Assembly: GCA_003285105.1 (NCBI GenBank)
Contig: CP030158.1
Coordinates: 2,332,501 to 2,396,500 of the forward strand
Direction of reading: 5' to 3'
DNA: 64,000 bases
From: Roseithermus sacchariphilus
Lineage (GTDB): Bacteria > Bacteroidota > Rhodothermia > Rhodothermales > MEBIC09517
Shown here: positions 806-13,967 of the stretch, piece after piece
Layout: each line of letters begins with the position of its first letter
Numbering within the stretch: position 1 is the first letter of the stretch
The notes under the pieces: generated by a model
What the model saw: only the letters and a program-made list of their open reading frames with translations
Database searches by the model: none
What the model was told of the DNA's origin: nothing
Translations under genes and position numbers: made by a program

Positions 806-1918
806 CTAACGCGCATACCCTGCAAAGGCCCGCTCCACCTGCTCCCTGACCGCCCCCGCGAACACATCGGCGTAGGTGCGCGCGGTGATGCGGATGTCGC
901 TGTGGCCGAGGAGCTTCTGGATCGTGCGCAACGGCACACCGGCCGAGGCCAGCACGGTGCCGTACGTCTTACGCAGGCTGTGGAACGTCAGCGACTCCGG
1001 GAGTTGGGCCATCCGCCGGTATTTCCTGAAAAGACGGCTGGTGCGGGCGTAGCTGAGGCGTCCCTCGCCGCCCGGGCTCTGAAACACGTAGCCGCCCTGC
1101 CACCCCCGCTCCGCATAGAGGCGCCGCAGCACCTCGGCGGCATCAGGGCTGATGTGGACCGTACGCTCATCGCCCGTCTTGGTACGGTGCTCCCGGCGGT
1201 TGCTGCGCACGACGACCAGCGCCTCCTCCACGTTCACGTCCGCCCATTGGAGCGCGCAGAGCTCGCCCAGGCGCAGCCCGCTGCCGGCGGCAAAACGCAC
1301 CACGTCGGCAAACCAGAGGATCTCCCCCGCACGCGCACCCCGCATCCGGTGATGCGCCTCGATGGTAGTCAGCAGCCGGTCCAGCTGCTCCACCGTGAGG
1401 TAGTTGACCGCTTTCCGAGGCGCTTTCGGACGACGGATCTCGTCGCAGGGGTTCTGGGGCGCATACCCGGCCGTGACGCAGAACGTGAAGAAGGTATTCA
1501 GCCGGGCATAGTACGTGCACCGGGTGTAGTCGGCCAGGCCGGGCTGGTGAATGAAGCGCCGCACGTCCTGCACCGTGACCCGATCGACCGTGATCTCCGG
1601 TGCCAGGAACGAGGCAAAGCGCTCCAGCACACGCAAACGCTGCCGGGTGGAATGCCGTCCGTAGCCCTCGGCCTCACGATGCCGGGCATAGGCGGCGATG
1701 GCTTCGGACAGGAGGACGGTGCGGCGGAGGGCCTCCTGCCAGGGGTCGTAGTCGCCGCGCATGTAGGCGTCGCTCAGTTCGATGAACCGCCGCTGCGCGT
1801 CGCGCTGGTTCTTCGTGCCCAGGGCCACCCACTTGCGCCCGCGGTGCCGGTCGTAAAAGTCGGCGTAGTACGATCCTTTCTTCTTCCTCAGCCGGGGTGC
1901 TCTACGTGCGGGGATCAT
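806..1918 (-). CDS. tyrosine recombinase / phage-type integrase
   Basis: This 370-residue site-specific recombinase probably integrates and excises the element that follows. An Arg/Lys-rich N-terminus (Arm-type start, YYADFYD near 17-23) precedes a SAM-like core-binding domain (about 70-155) and a catalytic domain. Visible catalytic residues are Arg in GSGLRLGEL, Lys in RTKTGDER, HSLRKTYG (HxxR), GHSDI and the nucleophile Tyr in ARTYADV near the C-terminus. I chose the ATG at 1918 because the frame upstream (to 2113) is low-complexity Arg/Ser/Pro sequence opposite the PIN gene. It sits at the left of the mobile region, with a tRNA-Leu gene at the right end. A target inside or beside that tRNA is an inference. 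Confidence 0.93.
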   Translation of the reverse strand: MIPARRAPRLRKKKGSYYADFYDRHRGRKWVALGTKNQRDAQRRFIELSDAYMRGDYDPWQEALRRTVLLSEAIAAYARHREAEGYGRHSTRQRLRVLERFASFLAPEITVDRVTVQDVRRFIHQPGLADYTRCTYYARLNTFFTFCVTAGYAPQNPCDEIRRPKAPRKAVNYLTVEQLDRLLTTIEAHHRMRGARAGEILWFADVVRFAAGSGLRLGELCALQWADVNVEEALVVVRSNRREHRTKTGDERTVHISPDAAEVLRRLYAERGWQGGYVFQSPGGEGRLSYARTSRLFRKYRRMAQLPESLTFHSLRKTYGTVLASAGVPLRTIQKLLGHSDIRITARTYADVFAGAVREQVERAFAGYAR

Positions 1919-1961
1919 GGCAGGTCGGGTGCAAGGGTTTGACGTGAACGGGAAGGCCGGC

Positions 1962-2372
1962 TCAGGCGAGCGCGGCGAGCAACTCGGCCGGCGTGTAGAC
2001 GGACAGCGTGGCCGCCCGGAAGTCCGGCGCGTTGCGGGTAACGAGGCCGTCGGCGCCGGCGAGGCGGGCCGCCTCGTGCAGCACCGCGTCCTCGAAGTCC
2101 TTCCAGCCCGCACCGAGCGCGGCCTCGATCGTCTGGCGCGTCACCGGGAGCACCTCGAAGCGGCGCAGCAGGTGCGCGAGGTCGTCCCGCGTCTGGGCCG
2201 GGCCGTAGGCGCGTTCGAGGAAGTAGGCCAGCGTCGTCAGCGTCGTGGCGGCCAGGCATCCCTCGAGCCGCCCGGTCTCCACCGCATCGAGGAGCCGGAC
2301 GGCGTTGTGCTGGTGCGGCGCCCGCGCCAGCAGGGCGTCGAGGAGGACGTTCGTGTCGAAGAGGATGCGCAT
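1962..2372 (-). CDS. PIN-domain toxin (VapC-like)
   Basis: The 136-residue PIN-domain protein is a predicted Mg-dependent RNase toxin. It opens with the PIN signature FDTNVLLD (first acidic residue Asp6). An acidic Glu lies in YFLERA in the middle, and FEDAVLHEAA followed by LVTRNAPDF supplies the C-terminal acidic/Asn motif. Size and order match the VapC type. The gene begins 3 nt after the stop of the upstream ribbon-helix-helix-like gene (2376-2660), a typical antitoxin-toxin order. It probably serves as a maintenance module for the element. Confidence 0.88.
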   Translation of the reverse strand: MRILFDTNVLLDALLARAPHQHNAVRLLDAVETGRLEGCLAATTLTTLAYFLERAYGPAQTRDDLAHLLRRFEVLPVTRQTIEAALGAGWKDFEDAVLHEAARLAGADGLVTRNAPDFRAATLSVYTPAELLAALA

Positions 2373-2375
2373 GGC

Positions 2376-2660
2376 CTACCGGTGCTTTTCTTCGAGGTAG
2401 CGGTAGTAATCCTCCTCATCCAGATCGACGGCCGGCTTGCGCCCCAGGAGCGACCGCGTCCAGGGCGAGAGGCGATCCTTCCAGTCCTCCTCGGCCTGTG
2501 GCGGGCGCTCCGCTTCCACCTGCCGGGCGAGCGCCCTGAAATACCCGGCGACGAGCCGGGAGAGCGAGGTGCCGTGCTCGTCGGCGTACCGTTTGGCGGC
2601 CTCGATGAGGTCGCGGTCGAGGCGCAATGTGAGCTTGGTGCGGGGCGATGACTCGGGCAT
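2376..2660 (-). CDS. DUF6364-like antitoxin, ribbon-helix-helix type
   Basis: The 94-residue protein has an N-terminal stretch (TKLTLRLDRDLIEAAKRYA, then GTSLSRLV) that matches the ribbon-helix-helix DNA-binding pattern of DUF6364 antitoxins. The acidic, aromatic C-terminus (DEEDYYRYLEE) is the kind of tail that wraps the partner toxin. It is the first gene of a two-gene operon with the PIN toxin. The expected role is to neutralise the toxin and autorepress the operon. The fold is read from sequence pattern only. Confidence 0.75.
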   Translation of the reverse strand: MPESSPRTKLTLRLDRDLIEAAKRYADEHGTSLSRLVAGYFRALARQVEAERPPQAEEDWKDRLSPWTRSLLGRKPAVDLDEEDYYRYLEEKHR

Positions 2661-2728
2661 GGCGACAGGGGTTCAGGTAGTGTGACGTACACCGTGCGCA
2701 TTTGTGTACGTCAGCGTGTTCGGGCGGT

Positions 2729-3535
2729 TCAGGCCGGGCGCAGGTAGAAGACCACCTTGCCGATGACCTCGCACGTGCAGGTCATGCCGGTGACCTCGGA
2801 GCGGTACGTGTTGGGCGTGTCGGCCTCGGGCAGGGGGCGGAGCATCTCGCTCCGGTAGGCCGGGTTGACGGGGATGATCTCGAGCACGCCGCCGCCGAAG
2901 CGCTGCACCTTCTTCACCAGCACCAGGTCGTCGAGGCGCAGCACGTAGATGCCGGCGTCGCTGACGGCCTGCACGGGCTCGTAGACCACCGTGTCGTTGG
3001 CGCGGATCTCCGGTTCCATCGAGTCGCCGACGACCTTGATGGAGCGGAGGCGGTCGGGGTTGGTGTTGGTCAGGCGGGCGATCTCGTCGCGGGAGAAGGC
3101 GTCGTAGCGTTCCGCCTCGCCGGCGCCGTTGTCGTAGCCGTACCCGGCCGAGGCGTGCCCGACGCGGGGGATGAGCACGATGCGGCTCGGGTCGAACTCG
3201 GGCCGGGCGCCGTCGCGCTCCACCGGCAGGCGCCGGCCTTCGGAGGGCGGGACGACCGCAGCCTGTTCAGCGCCGAACGATCGTTCGGCACCGCCTTCCA
3301 GCCCCAGGTCGCTCCACGAGAGGCCCAGGATCTCCACCAGCACCGGCAGATACTTGGTGCCCGGCAGCTTCTCGCCGCGCGTCCAGTTGCTGACGGTGCT
3401 CTGGCCGGGCCGCGAGCCGATGCGCGCCTCGATGGCCTCGGCAAGCGCCTCCTGCGTCAGCCCCAGCCGCGTCATCGCCTCCCCCACACGGCGGACGAAC
3501 AGCTCCGGGTCGATCACTTTTTTGACACGCGGCAT
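2729..3535 (-). CDS. XRE-S24 repressor (CI/LexA-like) of the element
   Basis: This 268-residue regulator has an N-terminal XRE helix-turn-helix (about 10-75: LTQEALAEAI, then STVSNWTRGEKLP) and a C-terminal S24 self-cleaving domain. Visible S24 features are an Ala-Gly pair in GHASAGYG as candidate cleavage site, the nucleophile Ser in VVGDSMEP and the general-base Lys in LVLVKKVQR. Such proteins hold temperate elements quiescent and self-cleave on RecA activation. The gene diverges from the early operon at 3649, as expected for a CI-type switch. The linker between the domains contains one copy of the 18-bp palindrome, read as AERSFG. Confidence 0.9.
   Translation of the reverse strand: MPRVKKVIDPELFVRRVGEAMTRLGLTQEALAEAIEARIGSRPGQSTVSNWTRGEKLPGTKYLPVLVEILGLSWSDLGLEGGAERSFGAEQAAVVPPSEGRRLPVERDGARPEFDPSRIVLIPRVGHASAGYGYDNGAGEAERYDAFSRDEIARLTNTNPDRLRSIKVVGDSMEPEIRANDTVVYEPVQAVSDAGIYVLRLDDLVLVKKVQRFGGGVLEIIPVNPAYRSEMLRPLPEADTPNTYRSEVTGMTCTCEVIGKVVFYLRPA
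3272..3289. repeat. 18-bp perfect palindrome, copy 1
   Basis: GCCGAACGATCGTTCGGC, identical on both strands. It lies inside the repressor gene, in the linker between HTH and S24 domains, and is read in frame as AERSFG. Four more identical copies lie at 4593, 7232, 7522 and 12789. Confidence 0.97.
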
Positions 3536-3648
3536 ATGTGTAAGTATTGTTTAGTGATAAAAGGAGATTTATATTGAGGCCACAGGAAGGCCTCTACGGT
3601 GTAATATACGCTGTGAGGTGATCGGTAACAATATGTGCGGTGATAATT
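3536..3648. promoter_or_regulatory. divergent control region of the element switch
   Basis: This AT-rich spacer separates the CI-like repressor (minus) from the early operon (plus). It contains AGTGATAA at 3553-3560, a GTGATAA at 3640-3646 running into the start region of the next gene, and an inverted repeat GAGGCC-N7-GGCCTC at 3576-3594. The GTGATAA motif recurs three times in the element's other AT-rich region (13909, 13941, 13953), which makes it a candidate repressor half-site. No -35/-10 pair is assigned. Confidence 0.6.
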
Positions 3649-3903
3649 ATGATCGCCAATCGCAAACCCTGCTGGATGGACGGCACGCTCGTCCCCTTCG
3701 ACGAGTACCTGCGGCGCGTCGAGGCGGCCCGACGCCGGGCCGAGGCGCTGTGCCTGACGCGCACCTGGATCGCCGCGCAGATCGGCCGCAGCCGGGGCCA
3801 CACCACGCGCGTGCTCGCCGGACAGGATCGCGGCGTCGAGACGCTGCTGCGCATCGAGGCGCTGCTGCGCCGCGTCGAGGCCGGGGAGGTGGCCCCGCGA
3901 TGA
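3649..3903 (+). CDS. small helix-turn-helix protein (Cro/CII position)
   Basis: This 84-residue basic protein contains a likely HTH near the middle (LTRTWIAAQIGRSRGHTTRVLAG), followed by a helical C-terminus. It is the first gene of the plus-strand operon, opposite the CI-like repressor, the position of Cro or CII in lambdoid elements. The ATG at 3649 is preferred over a GTG at 3640 that falls in the regulatory spacer. Its stop overlaps the next start (ATGA, 3900-3903). It is probably a regulator, but the family is not identified. Confidence 0.6.
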   Translation: MIANRKPCWMDGTLVPFDEYLRRVEAARRRAEALCLTRTWIAAQIGRSRGHTTRVLAGQDRGVETLLRIEALLRRVEAGEVAPR

Positions 3904-4991
3904 GCATCCTCCGCGCCCCGACACGCCCCCACGGCTTCGCGGTCATCGACCGCCGCACGCTGGCCGACGAGCGCCTCTCCTGGGCCGCCCGGGGCCTGCT
4001 CGCCTACCTGCTCTCGCTCCCCGACGACTGGCAGGTGCGCCCCGGACACCTGGCCGGCCGCGCCCCCTGCTCGGACTACCGCCTCCGGCAGGCCCTGGCC
4101 GAACTCCAGGCCTGCGGCTACGCCCGCGTCCAGCGACGCCGCCGCCGCGACGGCAAGCTCGCCGGCAGCACCTGGCTCATCGCCGAACGCCCCGAACTGC
4201 TCGAACCGGATGAGGCCGAGCCGGATGAGGAGGAGCCGGACGAGGCCGAGCCGGATGAGGAGGAGCCGGACGAAGCCGAGCCGGATGAGGAGGAGCCGGA
4301 CGAAGCCGAGCCGGATGAGGCCGAGCCCGCTCCGGCGAAGCCGTATCGCCATATCCGCCTCGTGGCACCGCACGCCGCGAAGAAAACGCCGTTTCCGGGC
4401 GATACGGCCACATCGCGATCCACCGAGAACCGGCCATCACCGGGAGCCGGTGTTTCCCGGGACTCGGCCCATTCGCCCCCCTTACCAAGCATAGAAGAAC
4501 AACCAAGTATTAAAACAGCAGCAACACCCTGCTCGGGCGACGGCATCCACCGGCTGGGGACTCTGCTTCCGGTGCCGGACACCCCGCCGGATGCCGAACG
4601 ATCGTTCGGCCATGCTGCTGCTGCTCTGGAAAAGAAGAACCTGCTGTTTCTGTTGACGAGCCGCGGCGTGGATGCGCCCGTGGCTCGGCGGCTCGTCGAG
4701 CGCTTCCCGGCGGAACGCATCCGTCGTCAGGTGGCGAGCTTCGACCGTGAACGCCCCGCCTCGGTGGGCTGGCTCGTGAAGGCCATCGAGCACGACTACG
4801 CGCCCCGCACCGCCGGGGCCGCGGAGCCGGAACTGCTCACCTACCAGCAGATGCTCCGCTGGTGCGAGGCGAACGGCGGGCTGCACCGCACCGCCGAGTT
4901 CGAGGTCGTCCGCCGGCCCGACGGCACCACCCGCTTCAAACTGGCCGCAAGGGCCGTGTCACACGGCCAACGCGGCCCTTCGGCCCCATGA
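3900..4991 (+). CDS. winged-helix, replication-initiation-like protein
   Basis: The 363-residue product has an N-terminal winged-helix domain (about 1-95: FAVIDRRTLADERLSWAARG, then LLAYLLSLPDDWQV) of the sort seen in phage and plasmid replisome-organiser proteins. An acidic low-complexity segment (EPDEA/EPDEE repeats, about 102-142) and a disordered linker follow. A C-terminal helical module (about 240-300: LLFLLTSRGVDAPVARRLVE, then VGWLVKAIEHDYAPR) is common at the end of such proteins. Two palindromic repeats are read through, one near residue 233 (AERSFG) and one as the last 15 residues. It overlaps its upstream neighbour by ATGA and its downstream neighbour likewise. A role in element replication is inferred. 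Confidence 0.62.
   Translation: MSILRAPTRPHGFAVIDRRTLADERLSWAARGLLAYLLSLPDDWQVRPGHLAGRAPCSDYRLRQALAELQACGYARVQRRRRRDGKLAGSTWLIAERPELLEPDEAEPDEEEPDEAEPDEEEPDEAEPDEEEPDEAEPDEAEPAPAKPYRHIRLVAPHAAKKTPFPGDTATSRSTENRPSPGAGVSRDSAHSPPLPSIEEQPSIKTAATPCSGDGIHRLGTLLPVPDTPPDAERSFGHAAAALEKKNLLFLLTSRGVDAPVARRLVERFPAERIRRQVASFDRERPASVGWLVKAIEHDYAPRTAGAAEPELLTYQQMLRWCEANGGLHRTAEFEVVRRPDGTTRFKLAARAVSHGQRGPSAP
4203..4326 (+). repeat. 30-bp tandem minisatellite encoding EPDEAEPDEE
   Basis: Four tandem units of 30 bp lie inside the replication-like gene, each encoding EPDEAEPDEE (the last unit ends EPDEAE). Units differ by a few synonymous changes. The period is a multiple of three, so copy-number changes keep the frame. 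Confidence 0.85.
4593..4610. repeat. 18-bp perfect palindrome, copy 2
   Basis: GCCGAACGATCGTTCGGC inside the replication-like gene, in frame as AERSFG, in the low-complexity linker before the C-terminal helical module. Confidence 0.97.
4943..4986. repeat. 44-bp nested palindromic element, copy A
   Basis: This 44-bp sequence is repeated exactly at 5032-5075. It holds GGCCGC...GCGGCC outer arms and an inner hairpin GGCCGTGT-C-ACACGGCC. It forms the C-terminal codons of the replication-like protein. Confidence 0.95.
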
Positions 4992-5344
4992 ACCCCACGA
5001 CGCACACCCCCGCACCGCTGCCGAACGATCAGGCCGCAAGGGCCGTGTCACACGGCCAACGCGGCCCTTCGGCCCATGACCTGGCCGCGCTCCGGGCGCA
5101 CCTGGCCGAGTTGGCCGCCCGGCAGGCCCGCATCGAAGACCTGCTCGTCCGCCTCTCGGCCGGCAAGCACCTGGAGCTGCTCACGACCGAGGACGTCCGC
5201 CGCATCCTCGGCATCGGCCGCACGAAGCTGAACGAGCTGATCGCCTCGGGAGAGCTGCCCATGTGGAAGCTGGGCGGCGAGCGCCGCATCACGCGGGCCG
5301 GGCTGGAGGCCTACATCCGGGCGCAGGCACGGGGAGGGCGATGA
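4988..5344 (+). CDS. excisionase/MerR-like helix-turn-helix protein
   Basis: This 118-residue protein carries a C-terminal HTH_17 (excisionase family) domain: LLTTEDVRRILGIGRTKLNE, then SGELPMWKLGGERRITRAGL (about 65-110). Such proteins bend DNA to direct excision or act as small regulators. A short coiled coil (about 38-60) precedes the HTH. The N-terminal 30 residues are largely encoded by copy B of the palindromic element, so this part is probably a late acquisition. It overlaps its neighbours by 4 nt on both sides (ATGA). An Xis role alongside the integrase is likely but not proven. Confidence 0.8.
   Translation: MNPTTHTPAPLPNDQAARAVSHGQRGPSAHDLAALRAHLAELAARQARIEDLLVRLSAGKHLELLTTEDVRRILGIGRTKLNELIASGELPMWKLGGERRITRAGLEAYIRAQARGGR
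5020..5075. repeat. nested palindromic element, copy B with GCCGAA/TTCGGC outer arms
   Basis: It begins GCCGAACGATC (half of the 18-bp palindrome) and continues into the exact 44-bp repeat of 4943-4986, which ends ...CTTCGGCCC. The outermost arms are GCCGAA (5020-5025) and TTCGGC (5068-5073). The unit therefore looks like the 18-bp palindrome split by an inserted hairpin. Confidence 0.9.
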
Positions 5345-5973
5345 CCGTGCGACGCCGCTTCCCCCATAACGCCCTGCTCGACACCACGCCGGACGGCCTG
5401 GCCCTCATCCGCCGCTGCGAGCGCTTCGCCGGGCGCTGGTACCGCTGCCCCGCCGGCGTCTGGACGATCGGCTACGGCACCACCGAGCACCTGCTGCCGG
5501 GCATCCACCGGCAGACGCTCCCCGGCCCCATCACGAAGGCCGACGCCGAACGCCTCCTCCGCCGCAGCCTCATCCAGGTCTTCGAGCCCGCCGTCGAACG
5601 CCTCGTCCGCGCCGACCTCACGGCCAACCAGTTCTCCGCGCTCGTCTCGTTCGTCTACAACGTCGGCGTGCCCCGCTTCGCCCGCTCGACGCTCCTGCGC
5701 AAGCTCAACCGCAGCGACTACGACGGGGCCGCCGCCGAGTTCGAGCGGTGGGTCTACGCCGGCGGGCAGCGCCTCCGGGGCCTCGTGCACCGCCGCCGCG
5801 CCGAACGCACCCTCTTCGAGACGCCGGACGACCCGCCGGGCGCGCTCCGCCTCACCGGCCTCGAGCCGCTCCCGCCCGTCCGCGTCGAGCCCTCGCCCAC
5901 CGCGCCGAACGATCCGGCCGCGTTACGCGGCCCTTCGACCCTGAATCGCCCCCACAACCCGCGCCTGCCCTGA
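5341..5973 (+). CDS. GH24 phage-type lysozyme / endolysin
   Basis: This 210-residue muramidase should cleave the MurNAc-GlcNAc bond of peptidoglycan. The catalytic signature is Glu in CERFAGRWY, then Cys after 8 residues and Thr after 5 more (WTIGYGTT): the E-8aa-C-5aa-T pattern of R21-type endolysins. The conserved FSALVSFVYNVG and GLVHRRRAER segments follow. No signal peptide is seen, so export would need a holin or other route. The ATG at 5341 overlaps the excisionase-like gene's stop. The Pro-rich C-terminal tail contains a shortened palindromic element (5904-5937). A close paralogue lies at 50616-51221 in the chromosome. Confidence 0.9.
   Translation: MTVRRRFPHNALLDTTPDGLALIRRCERFAGRWYRCPAGVWTIGYGTTEHLLPGIHRQTLPGPITKADAERLLRRSLIQVFEPAVERLVRADLTANQFSALVSFVYNVGVPRFARSTLLRKLNRSDYDGAAAEFERWVYAGGQRLRGLVHRRRAERTLFETPDDPPGALRLTGLEPLPPVRVEPSPTAPNDPAALRGPSTLNRPHNPRLP
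5904..5937. repeat. short form of the nested palindrome
   Basis: GCCGAACGATC is followed by GGCCGCG-TTA-CGCGGCC and CTTCG, inside the C-terminal tail of the endolysin gene. A related hairpin GGCCGCG-TCA-CGCGGCC occurs at 7046-7062 near the start of the gene at 7017. Confidence 0.85.
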
Positions 5974-6332
5974 TGGATCTCCTGCCCGGCATCGACCTCG
6001 CCAGCGTGCTCGTCGGGGCCGTCAGCGGCCTCGTGGGGGCGGTGCTGACGTTCCTGGCCACGCGGCGGCAGCACGAGGTGTCCGAGCGGTCGGTCTACAT
6101 CGCCGCCGTGGAGGGGCTGACGGCGTCGCTGCGGGCGGAGATCGAGCGGGTCAACGAGGCCCGGCGCGCGATGAAGGCGCGGATCGAGGCGCTGGAGCAG
6201 CGCATCGCGGAGCTGGAGGCGCGGGAGCGGACGCTGCAGGCCCGCATCGACGAGCTGGAGCGCGAGCGCGACCGCCTCCGCGACGACCTCCGCCGACACA
6301 TCAATGGCAACCCGCCGGAGGAATCGCCATGA
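5973..6332 (+). CDS. membrane-anchored coiled-coil protein (holin/spanin position)
   Basis: This 119-residue protein has one hydrophobic segment near residues 8-30 (ASVLVGAVSGLVGAVLTFLA). A long charged coiled coil of Glu/Arg heptads (about 45-110) follows. It starts at the TGATG overlap with the endolysin stop and ends in an ATGA overlap with the next gene. Position and layout resemble an Rz-like or holin-accessory protein of a lysis cassette, but there is no sequence signature for either. Confidence 0.65.
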   Translation: MDLLPGIDLASVLVGAVSGLVGAVLTFLATRRQHEVSERSVYIAAVEGLTASLRAEIERVNEARRAMKARIEALEQRIAELEARERTLQARIDELERERDRLRDDLRRHINGNPPEESP

Positions 6333-7009
6333 CGTACCGGCCCCGTATCGCCTTCAGCCGAAGGGCCGCCCGGTGGCTGCTCGCGCTGCTCGTGCTCGCG
6401 GCCGTGATGTGGCTCGGGCGGTCTTGCTCGCGGCCCTCCGCCCCGCCGCCGGCCACGCCGTCCGGGCGGGTCGAGGCCCCGGCGCCGCTCCTGCCACGGG
6501 CCGACGCCGTCACGGTGGCCCGGCGAATTGACACCGCGACCGTTGCCACGGAGCGCATTGCCGTCCGGGGCGGCCGCCGGTACGCCGCCACGGTGACGGT
6601 CGAAGCCGAAGGCACCGGTGTCGTGCTCGGCGTCCGGCGCGTCGATCCGGGCTGGTTCGCCGAGTTCCGCCTCGAGCGCCCCGACCGCGTGGCCGTCGAC
6701 GTGCTGCCCGGCTACGAGGCCGACGTGCTGACGGTGGCGCAGCGCCTGCCCGTCTTCGACGTCGAGGCGGCCCCGCAGGTGGGCCTCGGCCTCGGGCCAC
6801 GCGGCGTCTCCGGCGTGGCGGCGCTGACCGTCGTGCGCGCCTGGGGCGTCCATCTCGGCGGCTTCGCGGCGGTGGCCTTCCGGCCCGGCCGTCGTCGCCT
6901 TCATACCGGCGGCTACGCCTCGGTGCGCCCGCGCCCGGCCTTCTCCGTCGGCCTCGGCGTCGATGCGCTCACACGCCGTCCAATCCTCACCCTCACCCTT
7001 AACCTGTAA
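6329..7009 (+). CDS. membrane-anchored protein of unknown function
   Basis: This 226-residue product has an N-terminal basic stretch and a hydrophobic anchor (about 14-30: RWLLALLVLAAVMWLG). A Pro/Ala-rich linker follows, then a C-terminal region (about 65-226) of alternating hydrophobic and polar residues that looks beta-rich. Cys33, just after the anchor, is not in a proper lipobox. It is the fourth gene of the ATGA-overlapped chain from the endolysin. I do not recognise the family. A periplasmic or outer-membrane-facing domain is the likeliest reading. Confidence 0.6.
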   Translation: MTYRPRIAFSRRAARWLLALLVLAAVMWLGRSCSRPSAPPPATPSGRVEAPAPLLPRADAVTVARRIDTATVATERIAVRGGRRYAATVTVEAEGTGVVLGVRRVDPGWFAEFRLERPDRVAVDVLPGYEADVLTVAQRLPVFDVEAAPQVGLGLGPRGVSGVAALTVVRAWGVHLGGFAAVAFRPGRRRLHTGGYASVRPRPAFSVGLGVDALTRRPILTLTLNL

Positions 7010-7016
7010 CCCCGCT

Positions 7017-7481
7017 ATGGTCACCATCACGATTCAAATCCACATGGCCGCGTCACGCGGCCCTCACGGCCTCGACGGCGTCGTCGAGGTCATCCCGGCT
7101 GAGCCGGAGCCTCCCCCTCCGGCCCACACCGCCCGTGGCGACGGCGCGAGCCACACGCCCCCCGAGCCGCCTTCCGAAACCCGACCCTACCGCTACCCCG
7201 ATGGCACCAACCCGCCCCCCGCTGACGCAACGCCGAACGATCGTTCGGCCATCACCACCGGCACGCACACCCTCCGCGACCACATCGCCGTGCTGGAGGC
7301 CTGGCTGCACGCCCTCGACCCCGCGGCCCTCGCCGCCGTGCGCCAGGTCGTCACCCCGGACACCCCGGCGGATGCATGCATCGACTACGCCTTCCGCCTG
7401 GAGGCGGCGATCCGAACGCTGCGCCCGGTGCGGGGCGGTGACCCCGAGGACAACCCGCACGACGACCCGCCGGCTCGCTGA
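7017..7481 (+). CDS. hypothetical protein with helical C-terminal domain
   Basis: This 154-residue protein has a Pro/Glu-rich, poorly ordered N-terminal two-thirds containing two palindromic inserts (7046-7062 and 7232-7249, the latter read as PNDRSA). The C-terminal helical segment (about 85-140) is more protein-like (TLRDHIAVLEAWLHALDP, then DYAFRLEAAIRTL). A competing minus-strand reading frame exists but looks like a shadow. It is the last clear gene of the early operon. Confidence 0.5.
   Translation: MVTITIQIHMAASRGPHGLDGVVEVIPAEPEPPPPAHTARGDGASHTPPEPPSETRPYRYPDGTNPPPADATPNDRSAITTGTHTLRDHIAVLEAWLHALDPAALAAVRQVVTPDTPADACIDYAFRLEAAIRTLRPVRGGDPEDNPHDDPPAR
7232..7249. repeat. 18-bp perfect palindrome, copy 3
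   Basis: GCCGAACGATCGTTCGGC, read as PNDRSA in the gene at 7017-7481. This is a different reading frame from copies 1 and 2. Confidence 0.97.
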
Positions 7482-7781: not shown

Positions 7782-8879
7782 TCAGCCTCCGGGCTCCGTG
7801 TCCTCTGCCGGCCCGTAGTGGCGGTCTACGAGGTTCATCACGGGCACGAGCACAGGCAAACCGGTCGGTAGACGAGGCGGGGCCTTCGGGTCGGGATACG
7901 CCTCGGCCGTCCGGTGCACGATGTACCCGATGGCGTCGCGCATCCAGGCCGGCTCCTCGATCATACCGTAAGGCGCCACCCCCAGGCAGACTCCGATGGC
8001 ATGAACGACCGAATTGAAGGGCAACACCAGGTAGCAGGTTTCCCCCTGCTTTTCCCGGCGCTGTCCGGGTACGAGGTTCGTCATCCGCATGGCATCGAAG
8101 AACCGCCTATCCACCCGGAAGCGCACCTCGAACGGCTCCTCTACCGTGGCCCCGTGCACCGTATCCGGCGCCAGCAGACACTCCAGATCGGAAGGATCGA
8201 TCCCGGGATCGCTAAAGCCTACGTCCAGCTCTTCCAGCGACTCGATCATAGCCAGCGGAATCGGTCGAATCGTGCCTTTATGACTCCCTTCGGCATCCCG
8301 CACAAGAAGCACCGGCACGGCCGACATCAACGCGAGCGTGATCGGCTCCACGACCTCCTCCACCGTGTTTTTCCATCCCGGAGGGCGCACCGTAACCCGG
8401 ATCCGCTTCCCGTGCAATACCGCTTTCATGACCTCGAAAAAGACGGACGGATCGAACGACGGCGCCGGCGCCTGATTGAAGAGACGCGTCTCCAGCTCCG
8501 GATTGTCCTTCAGCCAGTAGACGAGTTCGGGATTCATCGTCTCACGTACCCGACGAATCAGCTCGACGAGTTGCTTGTAGAGCGACGTGTCCTTCAGGCT
8601 GTGCATCGTCATGTAGAGCGACAGCAACAGGAGCAGTACCTGCTGCTCCGACAGGTCGATGGAGGAAATGGCCTTTTCGACCTCTGGAATACCCTGTAGC
8701 TCATACCGGGTCTGCGGGCCCCTTTCAATCCGCCGGATGGGATGACCTTCTTCCTGGAGTTGTTCGATGAGACGGCGCACTTGCCTGGACGAGCAACCGA
8801 CCTGTTCAGCCAGTTCGCCGGCCGACAAAGGCCCCGTGGCCCGCTTGAGCTCCTCTAGCAAGCGTTCTTTTTTACGCAT
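7782..8879 (-). CDS. HTH-WYL domain transcriptional regulator
   Basis: This 365-residue regulator has an N-terminal winged helix (about 1-60: LSAGELAEQVGCSSRQVRRL) and a central/C-terminal WYL-type region (about 150-330, with HGKRIRVTVRPPG and RPIPLAMIESLEEL). WYL proteins often sense nucleic acid or ligand and control DNA-damage and defence genes; this is family knowledge. Its ATG (8877-8879) overlaps the end of the sigma factor gene by 8 nt, so the two are one operon. With the sigma factor it probably controls the divergent genes from 9737. Confidence 0.87.
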   Translation of the reverse strand: MRKKERLLEELKRATGPLSAGELAEQVGCSSRQVRRLIEQLQEEGHPIRRIERGPQTRYELQGIPEVEKAISSIDLSEQQVLLLLLSLYMTMHSLKDTSLYKQLVELIRRVRETMNPELVYWLKDNPELETRLFNQAPAPSFDPSVFFEVMKAVLHGKRIRVTVRPPGWKNTVEEVVEPITLALMSAVPVLLVRDAEGSHKGTIRPIPLAMIESLEELDVGFSDPGIDPSDLECLLAPDTVHGATVEEPFEVRFRVDRRFFDAMRMTNLVPGQRREKQGETCYLVLPFNSVVHAIGVCLGVAPYGMIEEPAWMRDAIGYIVHRTAEAYPDPKAPPRLPTGLPVLVPVMNLVDRHYGPAEDTEPGG

Positions 8880-9428
8880 TGCTTTTACCTGTTCTTTGGT
8901 TGTGCAGGGTGATCCCTATCCATGTGTCGGCGGATTGCTTCAGGCTGCGCACCTCGCCCAGATGCACCTGAAGCAACGAGGCAATGTCTTCCAACCCCAT
9001 GTGGTCGTAGTAATGCATCCAGGCTATGAGCCCCAGGCGGGGGGCATCTTCGCTATGACCTCTTGAATCAACAGGTGGCTTTCCTGCCGGGCCCATTGCG
9101 CATCCGGATCGCCTTCTCCGGCCATCTCCTCGACCGGTTCCGAATCCCCCTCTTTTTTCTTCCTCAGATAATCTTTGCAGGCATTTCCGGCCACGGTTTT
9201 CAGCCACGCGGCAAACTCACCCTGTTCGGGGTCGTACTGGTCGATGTTTTCCAGCACCTTGATCCAGATCTCCTGGGCCACGTCTTCGGCCTCATCGCTT
9301 TGCTGGAAATAGCGCCGGCAAAGGCCCAGCACCGTTCCCGCATGCCGGCTTACGAGTTCGCCATAAGCACGGTTGGCTTGCTCCCGCCCCTGTCGTATCT
9401 GCTCGATCAACTCCCTGTCCGTTTTCAT
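8872..9428 (-). CDS. ECF-type RNA polymerase sigma factor (frameshifted in this sequence)
   Basis: This sigma-70 family factor is about 185 residues once corrected. Region 2 is visible (YGELVSRHAGTVLGLCRRYF, then DEAEDVAQEIWIKVLENI) and region 4.2 follows the break (GLEDIASLLQVHLGEVRSLK). The reading frame breaks at the GGGGGG run 9039-9044 (CCCCCC on the coding strand); one extra C restores KMPPRLGLIAW. I start at the ATG at 9428, which has GGAGGGGG a few bases upstream. No anti-sigma gene is visible. It overlaps the WYL regulator gene and diverges from 9737. Confidence 0.85.
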
Positions 9429-9491
9429 GATGCCCCCTCCATGGTGCATTGAGCGAACCGTACGCCTGTAGAACGAAAACCCGGCAGAGAC

Positions 9492-9511
9492 CCGGACATT
9501 TCCAGGTCCGG
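9492..9511. promoter_or_regulatory. operator candidate CCGGAC-N8-GTCCGG, site 1
   Basis: Perfect 6-bp inverted arms with an 8-nt spacer, proximal to the sigma factor gene. The same arms and spacer length recur at 9651-9670. Confidence 0.6.
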
Positions 9512-9650
9512 TTAAAAAAATCTTTTCTGTCGCCCGCGTTATCTGTTCAACTGCATGCTCGGGGATGCCCGGGTTCGGGGATGCCCGCGTCTGGGGTTCC
9601 CGTTCCGTATCGACCCCTGTCCCACTCTATAAAGACAGACTGGGCCTTAT

Positions 9651-9670
9651 CCGGACACGAAAAGGTCCGG
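9651..9670. promoter_or_regulatory. operator candidate CCGGAC-N8-GTCCGG, site 2
   Basis: Same arms and spacing as 9492-9511 but a different spacer sequence, 67 bp upstream of the ATG at 9737. Conserved arms with a variable spacer suggest a protein-binding dyad. Confidence 0.6.
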
Positions 9671-9736
9671 CTGCCGACCGGCCACTCGTTATGGGGGTGT
9701 ACGCACGATTCATTCACTCAAACCGTGAGGTGCACC

Positions 9737-10783
9737 ATGACCACACAACACCCCATCCCCACCCGCGAACTGTTCTCGTACCTGTCCTGGATCGGGAGCA
9801 AAATCAAAGAACCGGAAGGCCGCCTCCGGTTGTTCTTCGACGACGAGCCCGTGAACTGGGCAGATACCCCGGATCAGGAGGAGGTATCCTCCGATCTCAA
9901 GAAGCGGGACGCCGATACGTGGCGTCATATCCCGGCCGAAGAGCGGATGGAGTCGCTGGGGCTCTCCACGCTGGAGCGGCGTGTCGTCCGCGTGCTCCTG
10001 CTGCAGGCGGTCCTCCATTGTGCGCCGAAGAAGCCCTTCTGTGGCCGGCTCTCCCAGCTGCTGCCGCTCGTCGTGGACGCGGACAACCTCATGCACTCGT
10101 TGCAGGTCATGGAGTCGCTCACGCCCGAGGGACGCCTTCTGCAGAGCGGGCTGGTGCAGGTCAAAGGCGGCTTCGTCCTCAGCGACCCCAAAGTGCTGCT
10201 GACCGAGGACGGCATCGTGGAGCTGCTCGGCCCCGGGATCTTCCCGCTGCTGGGCCTGAAGCCCTTCGAGACCGCCGGCGATCCCTACGCGCTGCCGAAG
10301 CGGCTGGCGGACCAGTTGCCGGAAAACTTCCGGATCGACTGCTCCCCCGACCGGGCTACGGTGCTGGCCGGCTCCCTGGCGGCCTCCCGTGGCGGATCGC
10401 CCTGGCTGGCCCCCTCACGTCGGTTCGACCACGAGATCGTCGTGAAGGCGCTGAAGCGGTATGGGGGGCTGCTCGTGTTCGAGGAGGAGAACCTCTTCAC
10501 GTCCAGCCGTGTCCGCGAGATCAACAAGGAGGTTCCGGTGCTGGTCATCCACCGGGAGTGGGACATCCCGAAGGTGGTCATCCGCGAGCGGAGCGTCCGC
10601 CTCTCGCAGTACCTGGACCGCCGGCTGCAGAAACATCTGGATCGGCAGAAGGCCCGCGTCAGCGGCGACGGCCAGGCCACGGACGTGCCCGAACTGAAGC
10701 AGCCGGATGATGAGGTCGATCGGCTCACGAAGGAGATCGACCAGATGCTCACACGGGTGTTGAGCGAGAACGCCGAGGCCTGA
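9737..10783 (+). CDS. pseudo-AAA+ / winged-helix protein A
   Basis: This 348-residue protein is related to the product of 11597-12610. Shared landmarks are LERRVVRVLLLQAV (about 80-93), KKPF, then RLSQLLPL (about 100-112), GRLLQSGLVQVKGG (about 130-145) and LGPGIFPLLGLKPF (about 170-183). The layout resembles the N-terminal winged-helix region and first AAA module of double-AAA ATPases. Where Walker A is expected there is RATVLAGSLAAS with no GKT; where Walker B is expected there is GGLLVFEEENLF. ATP hydrolysis is therefore unlikely. The ATG at 9737 follows GAGGTG. An acidic helical tail ends the protein. The AAA relation is inferred from pattern. Confidence 0.7.
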   Translation: MTTQHPIPTRELFSYLSWIGSKIKEPEGRLRLFFDDEPVNWADTPDQEEVSSDLKKRDADTWRHIPAEERMESLGLSTLERRVVRVLLLQAVLHCAPKKPFCGRLSQLLPLVVDADNLMHSLQVMESLTPEGRLLQSGLVQVKGGFVLSDPKVLLTEDGIVELLGPGIFPLLGLKPFETAGDPYALPKRLADQLPENFRIDCSPDRATVLAGSLAASRGGSPWLAPSRRFDHEIVVKALKRYGGLLVFEEENLFTSSRVREINKEVPVLVIHREWDIPKVVIRERSVRLSQYLDRRLQKHLDRQKARVSGDGQATDVPELKQPDDEVDRLTKEIDQMLTRVLSENAEA

Positions 10784-10851
10784 CCGCAGACGCGGCTACG
10801 CCTACACCCTGGAACCGTAACGCTACAACCCTAACCCGTAGAGGTGAAGCC

Positions 10852-11049
10852 ATGTACAGTGCCAAAATCGAACTCAACCGCCGTGTGGTGAAGGTGTACG
10901 ACCATCAAGGTAAAAACATCCTGTCGCGTCCCTTCTCCCACCCCGTTGCCAGCGCCTACGTCAGCGGTAACCAACTGACGGTGCAGGACGAGACCGGACG
11001 GCTCTACGTCTACAACCTCCCCAGTGGGTCGATGGCCTACTCGCGGTAG
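10852..11049 (+). CDS. small beta-rich protein
   Basis: This 65-residue protein has alternating hydrophobic strands and turns (RRVVKVYDHQGKNI, then GNQLTVQDETGRLYVYNLPS) that read like one blade of a WD- or PQQ-like repeat. No known family is recognised. It has a good upstream GAGGTGAAG spacing, and the gene follows pseudo-AAA gene A by 68 nt. A strong hairpin (11063-11093) follows it. It is probably co-transcribed with 9737-10783. Confidence 0.65.
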   Translation: MYSAKIELNRRVVKVYDHQGKNILSRPFSHPVASAYVSGNQLTVQDETGRLYVYNLPSGSMAYSR

Positions 11050-11062
11050 GAAGCCGGGGGTG

Positions 11063-11093
11063 CCGGGGCGGGAACGTGGTGTTCCCGCCCCGG
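11063..11093. terminator. hairpin between convergent genes
   Basis: Perfect 13-bp arms CCGGGGCGGGAAC / GTTCCCGCCCCGG with a 5-nt loop lie between the stop at 11049 (plus) and the stop at 11103 (minus). No strong T-run is present on either side, so termination is inferred from stem strength and position. Confidence 0.7.
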
Positions 11094-11102
11094 GCGCCTT
11101 CC

Positions 11103-11522
11103 TCACCCGGCCGTGCGGGCGCACACGCGCTCCCGGAACGACCCGAGCGCGTATCGCTTCGTCCCCTGCCCGCATCGGCTGACGAGCAGGCGATCCCCTT
11201 CGACATAGTAGATGGCATCCTGCCGGAACCCACGTCCCAGCTCACACGCCGCGTCGTGATCGAGCGCCACGCCCCAGCCAGGCTCGGCGTGTCCCGTATC
11301 GGGATCGTAGCCGGTAACACGGAACGGTCGCAGCCCGCGCGTGCGCAGTTCGGCCTCCAGGCGGCAGTCGGCCTCCTCGTTCTCCTCCGGGGTCCATGTC
11401 TGCCCCGTCGTGGCGTAGGCGGTGATGATGGCAAACCGTTCGGGCCACCGCTCCGGTGCGCCTTCAACCTCGAAATGCGTGCGCGCATAGGCAGGATGCA
11501 CGTCGTCCGGAAAACCGCTCAC
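11103..11522 (-). CDS. DUF3293 family protein
   Basis: The product is about 139 residues. It contains the DUF3293 hallmarks FAIITAYATTGQTW, then EENEEADCRLEAELRTRGL, FRVTGYDPDTGHAEPGW and a C-terminal IYYVEGDRLLVSRCG. The function of DUF3293 is unknown. The frame extends to a TTG at 11582, but I prefer the GTG at 11522, which leaves a divergent promoter spacer for the gene at 11597. It sits between the two pseudo-AAA genes on the opposite strand. Confidence 0.75.
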   Translation of the reverse strand: MSGFPDDVHPAYARTHFEVEGAPERWPERFAIITAYATTGQTWTPEENEEADCRLEAELRTRGLRPFRVTGYDPDTGHAEPGWGVALDHDAACELGRGFRQDAIYYVEGDRLLVSRCGQGTKRYALGSFRERVCARTAG

Positions 11523-11596
11523 GGGTGGATGCCTCGTCTGAAAAGCTCTGTTGAGAACACCGGAAATATACCATAACCCCAACCCTGTCGGGCCTT

Positions 11597-12610
11597 ATGG
11601 AGAGAGATCATTACGAGCAGCTGCGCACGATTATGGCGTACCTGAAGGACATCCTGCAGCGATACCTGCCTTCGGAACGAGCCATCACGGCCACCCAGAA
11701 GATCGTCGCGAAGTTTAACAAGGAGCACGCCGAATCGGAGCGTACCCGCGAAGGGTATGACGTCTCGGAGCTGTCCTTCGAAGCGTCAAACGTCCGGGCG
11801 CATCGCACGCTGGGACTGTACCGCCGTGCGAGTGAAAAGCTCGATATGAATCGGGATACACTGGCCCGGGACTGGGCAACGGTGCCGGCCGAAGACTACA
11901 TGGAGCAGCAGAACTACACGCCGCTGGAGCGTCGGATCCTCCGCGTGTTGCTCGTGCAGGAAGTTATGCGCGAACTCCGTAAAAAGCCGTTCGACGATCG
12001 CCTCTCGGGCCTGCTCTCCCTGATCTCGAATGACTCGTCGACCGCCATGCACCTCGCCGTCGTTGACCTGCTGATGCCCTATGGTCGGTTGCGGCAGGAA
12101 GGGTTGGTCTGCGTGAAGGGTGCGCTGCTGTGCGGCGACCCGGTGGTGAAACTCCGACGCGAGATGCTCGTGCCGCTGCTCGGGGAGAATCTGTTCCTGC
12201 TGATGGGTCTGGAGCCGCTCACCCCGGCTCCGCTCGCGCCCGCCTCCTTCGAGCGCCATGACCTGAAGCACGTCCTCATCGAGGGGCCACGCCAGGAAGC
12301 GGCGCGCCTGGCTGCCCTCCTGTGCTCATGCACCGGGGGCACCGCCTGGGCAGTGCCCCCCGGGCTGGACGTCGCCGACCTGCCAGCGAAGCTGCTCAGC
12401 GCGGCGCTCCAACAGCACGGCGGCTTGCTCGTCCTCGATACCGCGCGCGCATATACGAGCGGCGCGCTCGTGAAACTGCTTCGCCACATGCCCGTGCTGC
12501 AACTCTCGGAGACGAGAGAGGACATCCGCGTCCAGGCCCCACAGGATCCGAGTTTCGGTGAGGTGCTCCACGAGTGGCTCTCGTCCCAACTGGCCGGTGA
12601 CGATGCGTGA
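11597..12610 (+). CDS. pseudo-AAA+ / winged-helix protein B
   Basis: This 337-residue protein is a relative of 9737-10783, with a different N-terminal helical domain (about 1-95). Shared core landmarks are LERRILRVLLVQEV, KKPFDDRLSGLLSLI, GRLRQEGLVCVKGALLCGDP and LGENLFLLMGLEPL (about 115-210). The AAA-like part begins at HVLIEGPRQEAARLAALL, where a P-loop (GPPGxGKx) would be expected, but the Gly-Lys-Thr is missing. GGLLVLDTARAY stands where Walker B would be, with a single Asp. It is probably a non-hydrolysing structural or regulatory paralogue. Two related pseudo-enzymes within 3 kb suggest a heteromeric assembly. Confidence 0.7.
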   Translation: MERDHYEQLRTIMAYLKDILQRYLPSERAITATQKIVAKFNKEHAESERTREGYDVSELSFEASNVRAHRTLGLYRRASEKLDMNRDTLARDWATVPAEDYMEQQNYTPLERRILRVLLVQEVMRELRKKPFDDRLSGLLSLISNDSSTAMHLAVVDLLMPYGRLRQEGLVCVKGALLCGDPVVKLRREMLVPLLGENLFLLMGLEPLTPAPLAPASFERHDLKHVLIEGPRQEAARLAALLCSCTGGTAWAVPPGLDVADLPAKLLSAALQQHGGLLVLDTARAYTSGALVKLLRHMPVLQLSETREDIRVQAPQDPSFGEVLHEWLSSQLAGDDA

Positions 12611-13835: not shown

Positions 13836-13967
13836 GGCTGCAAGGGTTTGGATGGATGAAAACGGGAAGGGGAACGGTGCTTACTGCTGATACTAATGTA
13901 AGATAAATAGTGATAAATAGCAAGTTTTAAAGAAAATAAAAGTGATAAAAATGGTGATAACCACGCC
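13836..13967. promoter_or_regulatory. AT-rich control region with repeated GTGATAA motif
   Basis: A sharply AT-rich stretch within very GC-rich flanks, directly upstream of the minus-strand genes starting at 13835. It has RGTGATAA at 13909-13916, 13941-13948 and 13953-13960 and an inverted repeat CTTAC-N13-GTAAG at 13880-13902. The same RGTGATAA occurs twice in the switch region 3536-3648, which suggests a common element-encoded regulator. Confidence 0.6.

Follow-up and report, generated by a model that had tools for sequence, protein, structure and literature searches.

In a 64,000-nucleotide stretch of Roseithermus sacchariphilus DNA, hereafter the window (G000:C1:2332501-2396500, part of a 4.81-Mb single-contig genome), a gene for a WYL-type regulator stands divergent from a gene for a protein that lacks a P-loop, and the latter is followed by a gene for a beta-rich protein of 65 amino acids (aa). 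The same three genes occur in Rhodothermus in front of three phage-defence systems, and the set therefore looks like an undescribed portable cassette for immunity control. The features of the locus are collected in Table 1.

Table 1. Features of the WYL locus and associated palindromes (window positions unless a Rhodothermus locus is named)
Feature	Position	Strand	Remarks
WYL-type regulator P0001, 365 aa	7782..8879	-	Winged helix-turn-helix (wHTH), diverged WYL domain, WCX-like C terminus; HTH_11, PADLOC WYL
Extracytoplasmic function (ECF) sigma gene, broken	8872..9428	-	Region 2 in frame to 9024, region 4 in other frame to 8872
Candidate operator 1, CCGGAC-CTGGAAAT-GTCCGG	9492..9511	-	Core ends 65 bp before sigma ATG
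Candidate operator 2, CCGGAC-ACGAAAAG-GTCCGG	9651..9670	+	Core ends 68 bp before 9737 ATG
P-loop-less protein A (P0003), 348 aa	9737..10783	+	Direct counterpart of Rhodothermus gene
65-aa beta-rich protein	10852..11049	+	Kept beside P-loop-less gene
DUF3293 protein	11103..11582	-	E=2.8e-13
P-loop-less protein B (P0004), 337 aa	11597..12610	+	Local paralogue of A
Second palindrome	L006 10643-10662; L007 10605-10624; L008 10446-10461 (core)		After WYL stop codon
Palindrome GCCGAACGATCGTTCGGC copies	3272, 4593, 7232, 7522, 12789		9.5-kb stretch

The three genes recur in front of different defence systems

The regulator P0001 matched HTH_11 (E=1.8e-9) and the WYL profiles of PADLOC (E=1.5e-10 and 5.3e-8), in agreement with a preliminary description of this DNA that had placed a WYL gene here. 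It is 26% identical to a WYL protein of a Rhodothermus plasmid, and its Rhodothermus orthologue P0009 matches both Pfam WYL and Pfam WCX. Among plasmids, tblastn located homologues in Rhodothermus marinus pRMAR01 and pRHOM17201 and in no others; of the 245 genomes of the class (Rhodothermia), 4 had them according to whole-genome searches, and a profile search of 395 genomes of the phylum returned the same four; further weak matches in the phylum set (E 0.01-0.1) were judged to be chance. No homologues were found in viral contigs, phages or GTDB genome contigs. The distribution of the cassette is thus very narrow.

The order WYL (-), P-loop-less (+), 65-aa (+) is common to pRMAR01, pRHOM17201 and a Rhodothermus chromosome (G168), and the WYL and P-loop-less genes are divergent neighbours wherever both are intact, namely at the window locus and at the three in Rhodothermus. 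A further genome, G172 (L010 18334-19158), holds a remnant in which the WYL gene has lost its 5' part and encodes no more than 110 C-terminal aa (with 49% identity to P0001), the palindrome described below is missing, and the P-loop-less gene has an intact start and is interrupted by the end of the contig.

Alignment of the three Rhodothermus loci revealed a 2.48-kb cassette block that is 83-98% identical and stops 20-40 bp past the 65-aa gene, after which three unrelated stretches follow before the common backbone resumes. The cargo exchanged behind the cassette is bacteriophage exclusion (BREX) type 3 in G168 (BrxF E=2e-64, BrxC, PglX, BrxH, PglZ), a type III restriction-modification (R-M) system with a cyclase and a two-transmembrane (2TM) effector of cyclic-oligonucleotide-based anti-phage signalling (CBASS) in pRHOM17201, and, from annotation, an EcoRV-type R-M system with HsdS in another Rhodothermus locus. 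All three are defence systems, and all begin directly behind the cassette in the same direction. No terminator-like site was found between cassette and BREX genes in G168. Within the pRHOM17201 cargo (L006 13716-20851), the CBASS cyclase and 2TM effector separate the methyltransferase gene of the R-M system from its nuclease gene. Other WYL relatives in the class precede CRISPR-Cas genes. Judged by the BrxR/CapW pattern of a regulator gene beside a defence operon, the Rhodothermus loci conform and the window does not.

A palindrome is held at fixed spacing in the divergent promoter

In the window, the divergent region measures 307 bp and contains two perfect CCGGAC-N8-GTCCGG palindromes, which are the only exact matches in the 64 kb. 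Both sites had been overlooked in the preliminary description. Dinucleotide shuffling of the region produced a pair of 6-bp palindromes that share an arm sequence in 0 of 3000 trials. The shorter form CGGAC-N8-GTCCG precedes the ATG of the P-loop-less gene by exactly 68 bp in the window, pRMAR01, pRHOM17201 and G168, and identity between the Rhodothermus and window divergent regions is 75-80% inside the palindrome and 32-36% outside it. No palindrome was found upstream of the P0004 gene.

Six genomes were searched for CGGACCTGAAAATGTCCG with up to 3 mismatches. The 18-mer has a single exact copy in each of two genomes, in the cassette of G168 and immediately behind a WYL stop codon in G149; the best matches in the window genome and in G167 likewise lie within the cassette. 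A high-copy repetitive extragenic palindromic element was rejected as an explanation, the best matches being single-copy in each genome. The G149 copy (L073 3209-3228) is a perfect palindrome with 11-bp arms, CCAACCCGGAC-CTGAAAAT-GTCCGGGTTGG, and it separates the WYL gene from a gene that has a relative in G150 (L078), where this relative follows a WYL gene and precedes the Cas3/Cas8e genes of CRISPR type I-E. Immediately behind the WYL stop codon, the Rhodothermus loci have another copy of the palindrome, with the same CTTTCNG sequence beside it. CapW and BrxR bind to palindromic promoter sites of adjoining immune operons (PMC9122588, PMC9122601), and by analogy with these regulators CGGAC-N8-GTCCG is a candidate operator that the WYL protein may bind.

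The partner proteins lack catalytic signatures

P0003 and P0004 are related to each other (37% over 215 aa, E=5e-35), as the preliminary description had recognized, and both lack the P-loop Lys-Thr that it had reported absent. The Walker A motif GxxxxGK[ST] is missing in all five full-length family members (P0003, P0004 and three Rhodothermus homologues); because the Rhodothermus homologues also lack the P-loop lysine, its loss is a family trait. Walker B-like LLVLD, LLVFE and VLVLE occur in the family, a pattern that is common by chance. Neither window protein has a sequence match in Pfam, NCBIfam, PADLOC, PHROG or PDB, and the winged-helix region once assigned to the pair is accordingly backed by none of these libraries.

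AlphaFold2 models, built from just the two window sequences, were poor overall, with a whole-chain mean predicted local distance difference test (pLDDT) score of 47 and 50. Residues of about 195-275 in the C-terminal domain of P0003 scored mostly 72-84 and follow a b-a-b-a-b-a-b order that is compatible with an additional strand catalytic E (ASCE) core. Foldseek searches of both models against PDB returned no match at E<=1e-3; outside PDB, one unnamed viral protein matched (E=2.9e-4). For P0004, many of the entries listed at E 0.05-0.4 are AAA and RecA proteins, and we did not count them as proof. The absence of the P-loop thus stands, and the AAA-like module proposed earlier has neither a library match nor a PDB fold match at this threshold; a pseudo-AAA reading of these proteins is plausible, as a fair guess and not as a result.

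The 65-aa protein is 42% identical between the window and pRMAR01, its profile gave strong matches across the class only beside the cassette, and it is possibly a single propeller blade. Domain library searches found no enzymatic or toxic domain in the P-loop-less or 65-aa proteins. Both partners are new, in the sense that none of the libraries searched describes them.

The sigma and DUF3293 genes are local extras

The sigma gene, whose end overlaps the WYL start codon, is broken in this assembly at a C6 run (9039-9044), which may be a sequencing error. The frame 9024-9428 holds region 2 only (Sigma70_r2, E=8.7e-23), and region 4 (Sigma70_r4_2, E=1.2e-6) was recovered on a read-through fragment in the frame ending at 8872, the break having been bridged solely for the domain search; regions 2 and 4, which define an ECF sigma factor, therefore do not share one open frame. 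Neither the sigma gene, absent from all Rhodothermus copies of the cassette, nor the DUF3293 gene, absent from the Rhodothermus loci, belongs to the recurring set, which comprises the WYL, P-loop-less and 65-aa genes.

These results divide the preliminary description. It had placed an ECF sigma and a WYL gene on one strand, and of these the WYL gene is intact while the sigma gene is not; the small beta-rich and DUF3293 genes that it saw between the related pair are both present, DUF3293 being corrected to the reverse strand. It had further joined the four principal genes (sigma, WYL and the related pair) into one stress-responsive module, for which a genome-context check supported the link between WYL and P-loop-less genes, together with the 65-aa gene, and not the sigma gene, to which no P-loop-less homologue in Rhodothermus is adjacent. 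A four-gene module that includes sigma and DUF3293 was rejected because both are missing from the Rhodothermus loci.

The window copy lies in a phage-like setting

To the left of the cassette (window 806-7481) lie genes for an integrase, a DUF6364 protein, an S24/CI-like repressor, a replication-initiator-like protein and a phage lysozyme. The palindrome GCCGAACGATCGTTCGGC is found at six sites of the 4.8-Mb genome; five fall between window 3272 and 12806 and flank the cassette on both sides; they are perhaps operators of the S24 repressor (2729-3535), or element-specific repeats. G+C content is 57-66% in the cassette genes and about 69-75% in the surroundings. Because of the phage-type neighbours, the clustered GCCGAACGATCGTTCGGC palindromes and the lower G+C, the window cassette probably belongs to the cargo of an element that resembles a prophage or satellite. 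A tRNA-Leu gene (15401) was rejected as the attachment site, as neither the window nor the 20 kb upstream of it contains a 14-base repeat of its sequence. An 80-bp stretch of 32% G+C (window 13860-13940) lies within a region of 70% G+C.

A candidate mobile cassette for immune control

We put at about one in two the probability that these genes are a mobile three-gene immune-control cassette, in which a WYL protein, as repressor or activator, is combined with a conserved non-ATPase and the 65-aa beta protein. As a dimer, the WYL protein would bind CGGAC-N8-GTCCG in the divergent promoter and control both its own transcript and the opposite one. Upon infection or DNA damage, the WYL domain would bind single-stranded nucleic acid, as CapW and BrxR suggest, and promoter output would change. 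The two induced proteins may then act with the defence operon that lies directly downstream in Rhodothermus, and the cassette promoter may also read through into that operon. The window copy would represent a variant that lacks defence cargo, has the non-ATPase gene twice and includes an additional sigma gene with a frameshift in the assembly. A more specific form of this proposal is a portable control unit of a new type, in which the WYL switch is joined by a P-loop protein that has lost its catalytic function and by a protein of one propeller blade; these two would form a non-enzymatic sensor or adaptor and license whichever defence operon follows. It is a tentative idea that we would not expect to hold in full. 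The candidate operator and the three defence cargoes strengthen the earlier suggestion that the WYL regulator is tied to DNA damage or defence.

Several observations weigh against an immune-control cassette. In pRMAR01, promoters are predicted between the 65-aa gene and the cargo, which makes read-through uncertain. Since one plasmid-type backbone is common to all three Rhodothermus loci, their association with defence genes possibly goes back to one evolutionary event and not three, and no defence cargo accompanies the window copy. Pfam WYL and WCX are absent among the 25 matches listed for P0001, whose WYL domain is diverged. Finally, the palindrome behind the WYL stop codon is not explained by a simple promoter operator.

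The shared backbone, on which every Rhodothermus copy lies near RepA, ParA or UmuC-type genes, would also suit a role in replicon housekeeping, in which WYL and its partners serve copy number, stability or phage conflict and the slot behind them merely tolerates defence genes; the window copy, without cargo in an element with an integrase, an S24 repressor and a replication initiator, points the same way. We consider this possible but on balance unlikely, because three different cargoes, all of them defence systems, start directly behind the cassette in the same direction, and because WYL relatives precede CRISPR genes, where the same 18-mer is found. The P-loop-less and 65-aa proteins could instead be a small defence system in their own right, a sensor or scaffold with its partner, that the WYL protein silences, with the neighbours reflecting ordinary clustering in defence islands. 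WYL regulators do control adjoining toxic immune genes (PMC9122588), and in the window the cassette stands alone with its P-loop-less gene duplicated, but the lack of an enzymatic or toxic domain in either protein leaves this improbable. The stress circuit of the preliminary description, uniting sigma, WYL and both pseudo-AAA proteins, would account for the overlap of the sigma and WYL genes and for a palindrome at nearly the same distance before sigma as before 9737 (65 versus 68 bp), but with sigma missing from every Rhodothermus copy and broken in this assembly, we regard it as very improbable indeed.

Relation to known systems

No description of the cassette was found in the literature searched. 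Its P-loop-less proteins superficially resemble the WHD AAA+ ATPases (PF22977) of the same taxonomic order, in the pattern of a helical or winged N-terminal part followed by a degenerate ATPase-like module; P0003 and P0004, however, have no active AAA module, and homology was rejected because hhalign gave no significant profile match (best E about 0.03, single comparison). The PF22977 WHD has no Pfam match in P0003 or P0004, and none in their own genome. Mycobacterial SiwR is likewise a WYL regulator beside a two-gene operon with a promoter palindrome, whereas the text consulted (PMC10693628) presents an activator with DinB-like targets and states no link to defence. CapK with CapS and CapH with CapP (PMC13373217) also form portable, multi-gene controllers that precede various immune operons, but they consist of kinase and STAS or protease and HTH proteins, with no WYL and no P-loop-less protein.

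The closest parallel is with BrxR and CapW of BREX, CBASS and other islands (PMC9122601, PMC9122589, PMC9122588), which share with the Rhodothermus loci a protein of wHTH-WYL-WCX type beside defence genes, a palindrome in the promoter (here a candidate site) and an association with varied defence systems. The cassette differs in that two conserved, undescribed genes, divergent from the WYL gene, separate it from the cargo, and in that the BrxR site has 11-bp arms and a 5-bp gap, whereas CGGAC-N8-GTCCG is a candidate from sequence. By this analogy the cassette probably works like the BrxR/CapW kind of control, as a likeness and not as a demonstrated member. The known one- or two-gene controllers (BrxR/CapW, CapH with CapP, CapK with CapS) account for the use of a single damage-responsive switch by different immune operons. 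In the present case the WYL switch is accompanied by two conserved proteins that have no catalytic signature, directly before three different defence systems in one slot. If our proposal is correct, it adds to these a controller with non-enzymatic partners, and it provides a precise candidate operator for WYL proteins in Rhodothermota, one of them CRISPR-linked.

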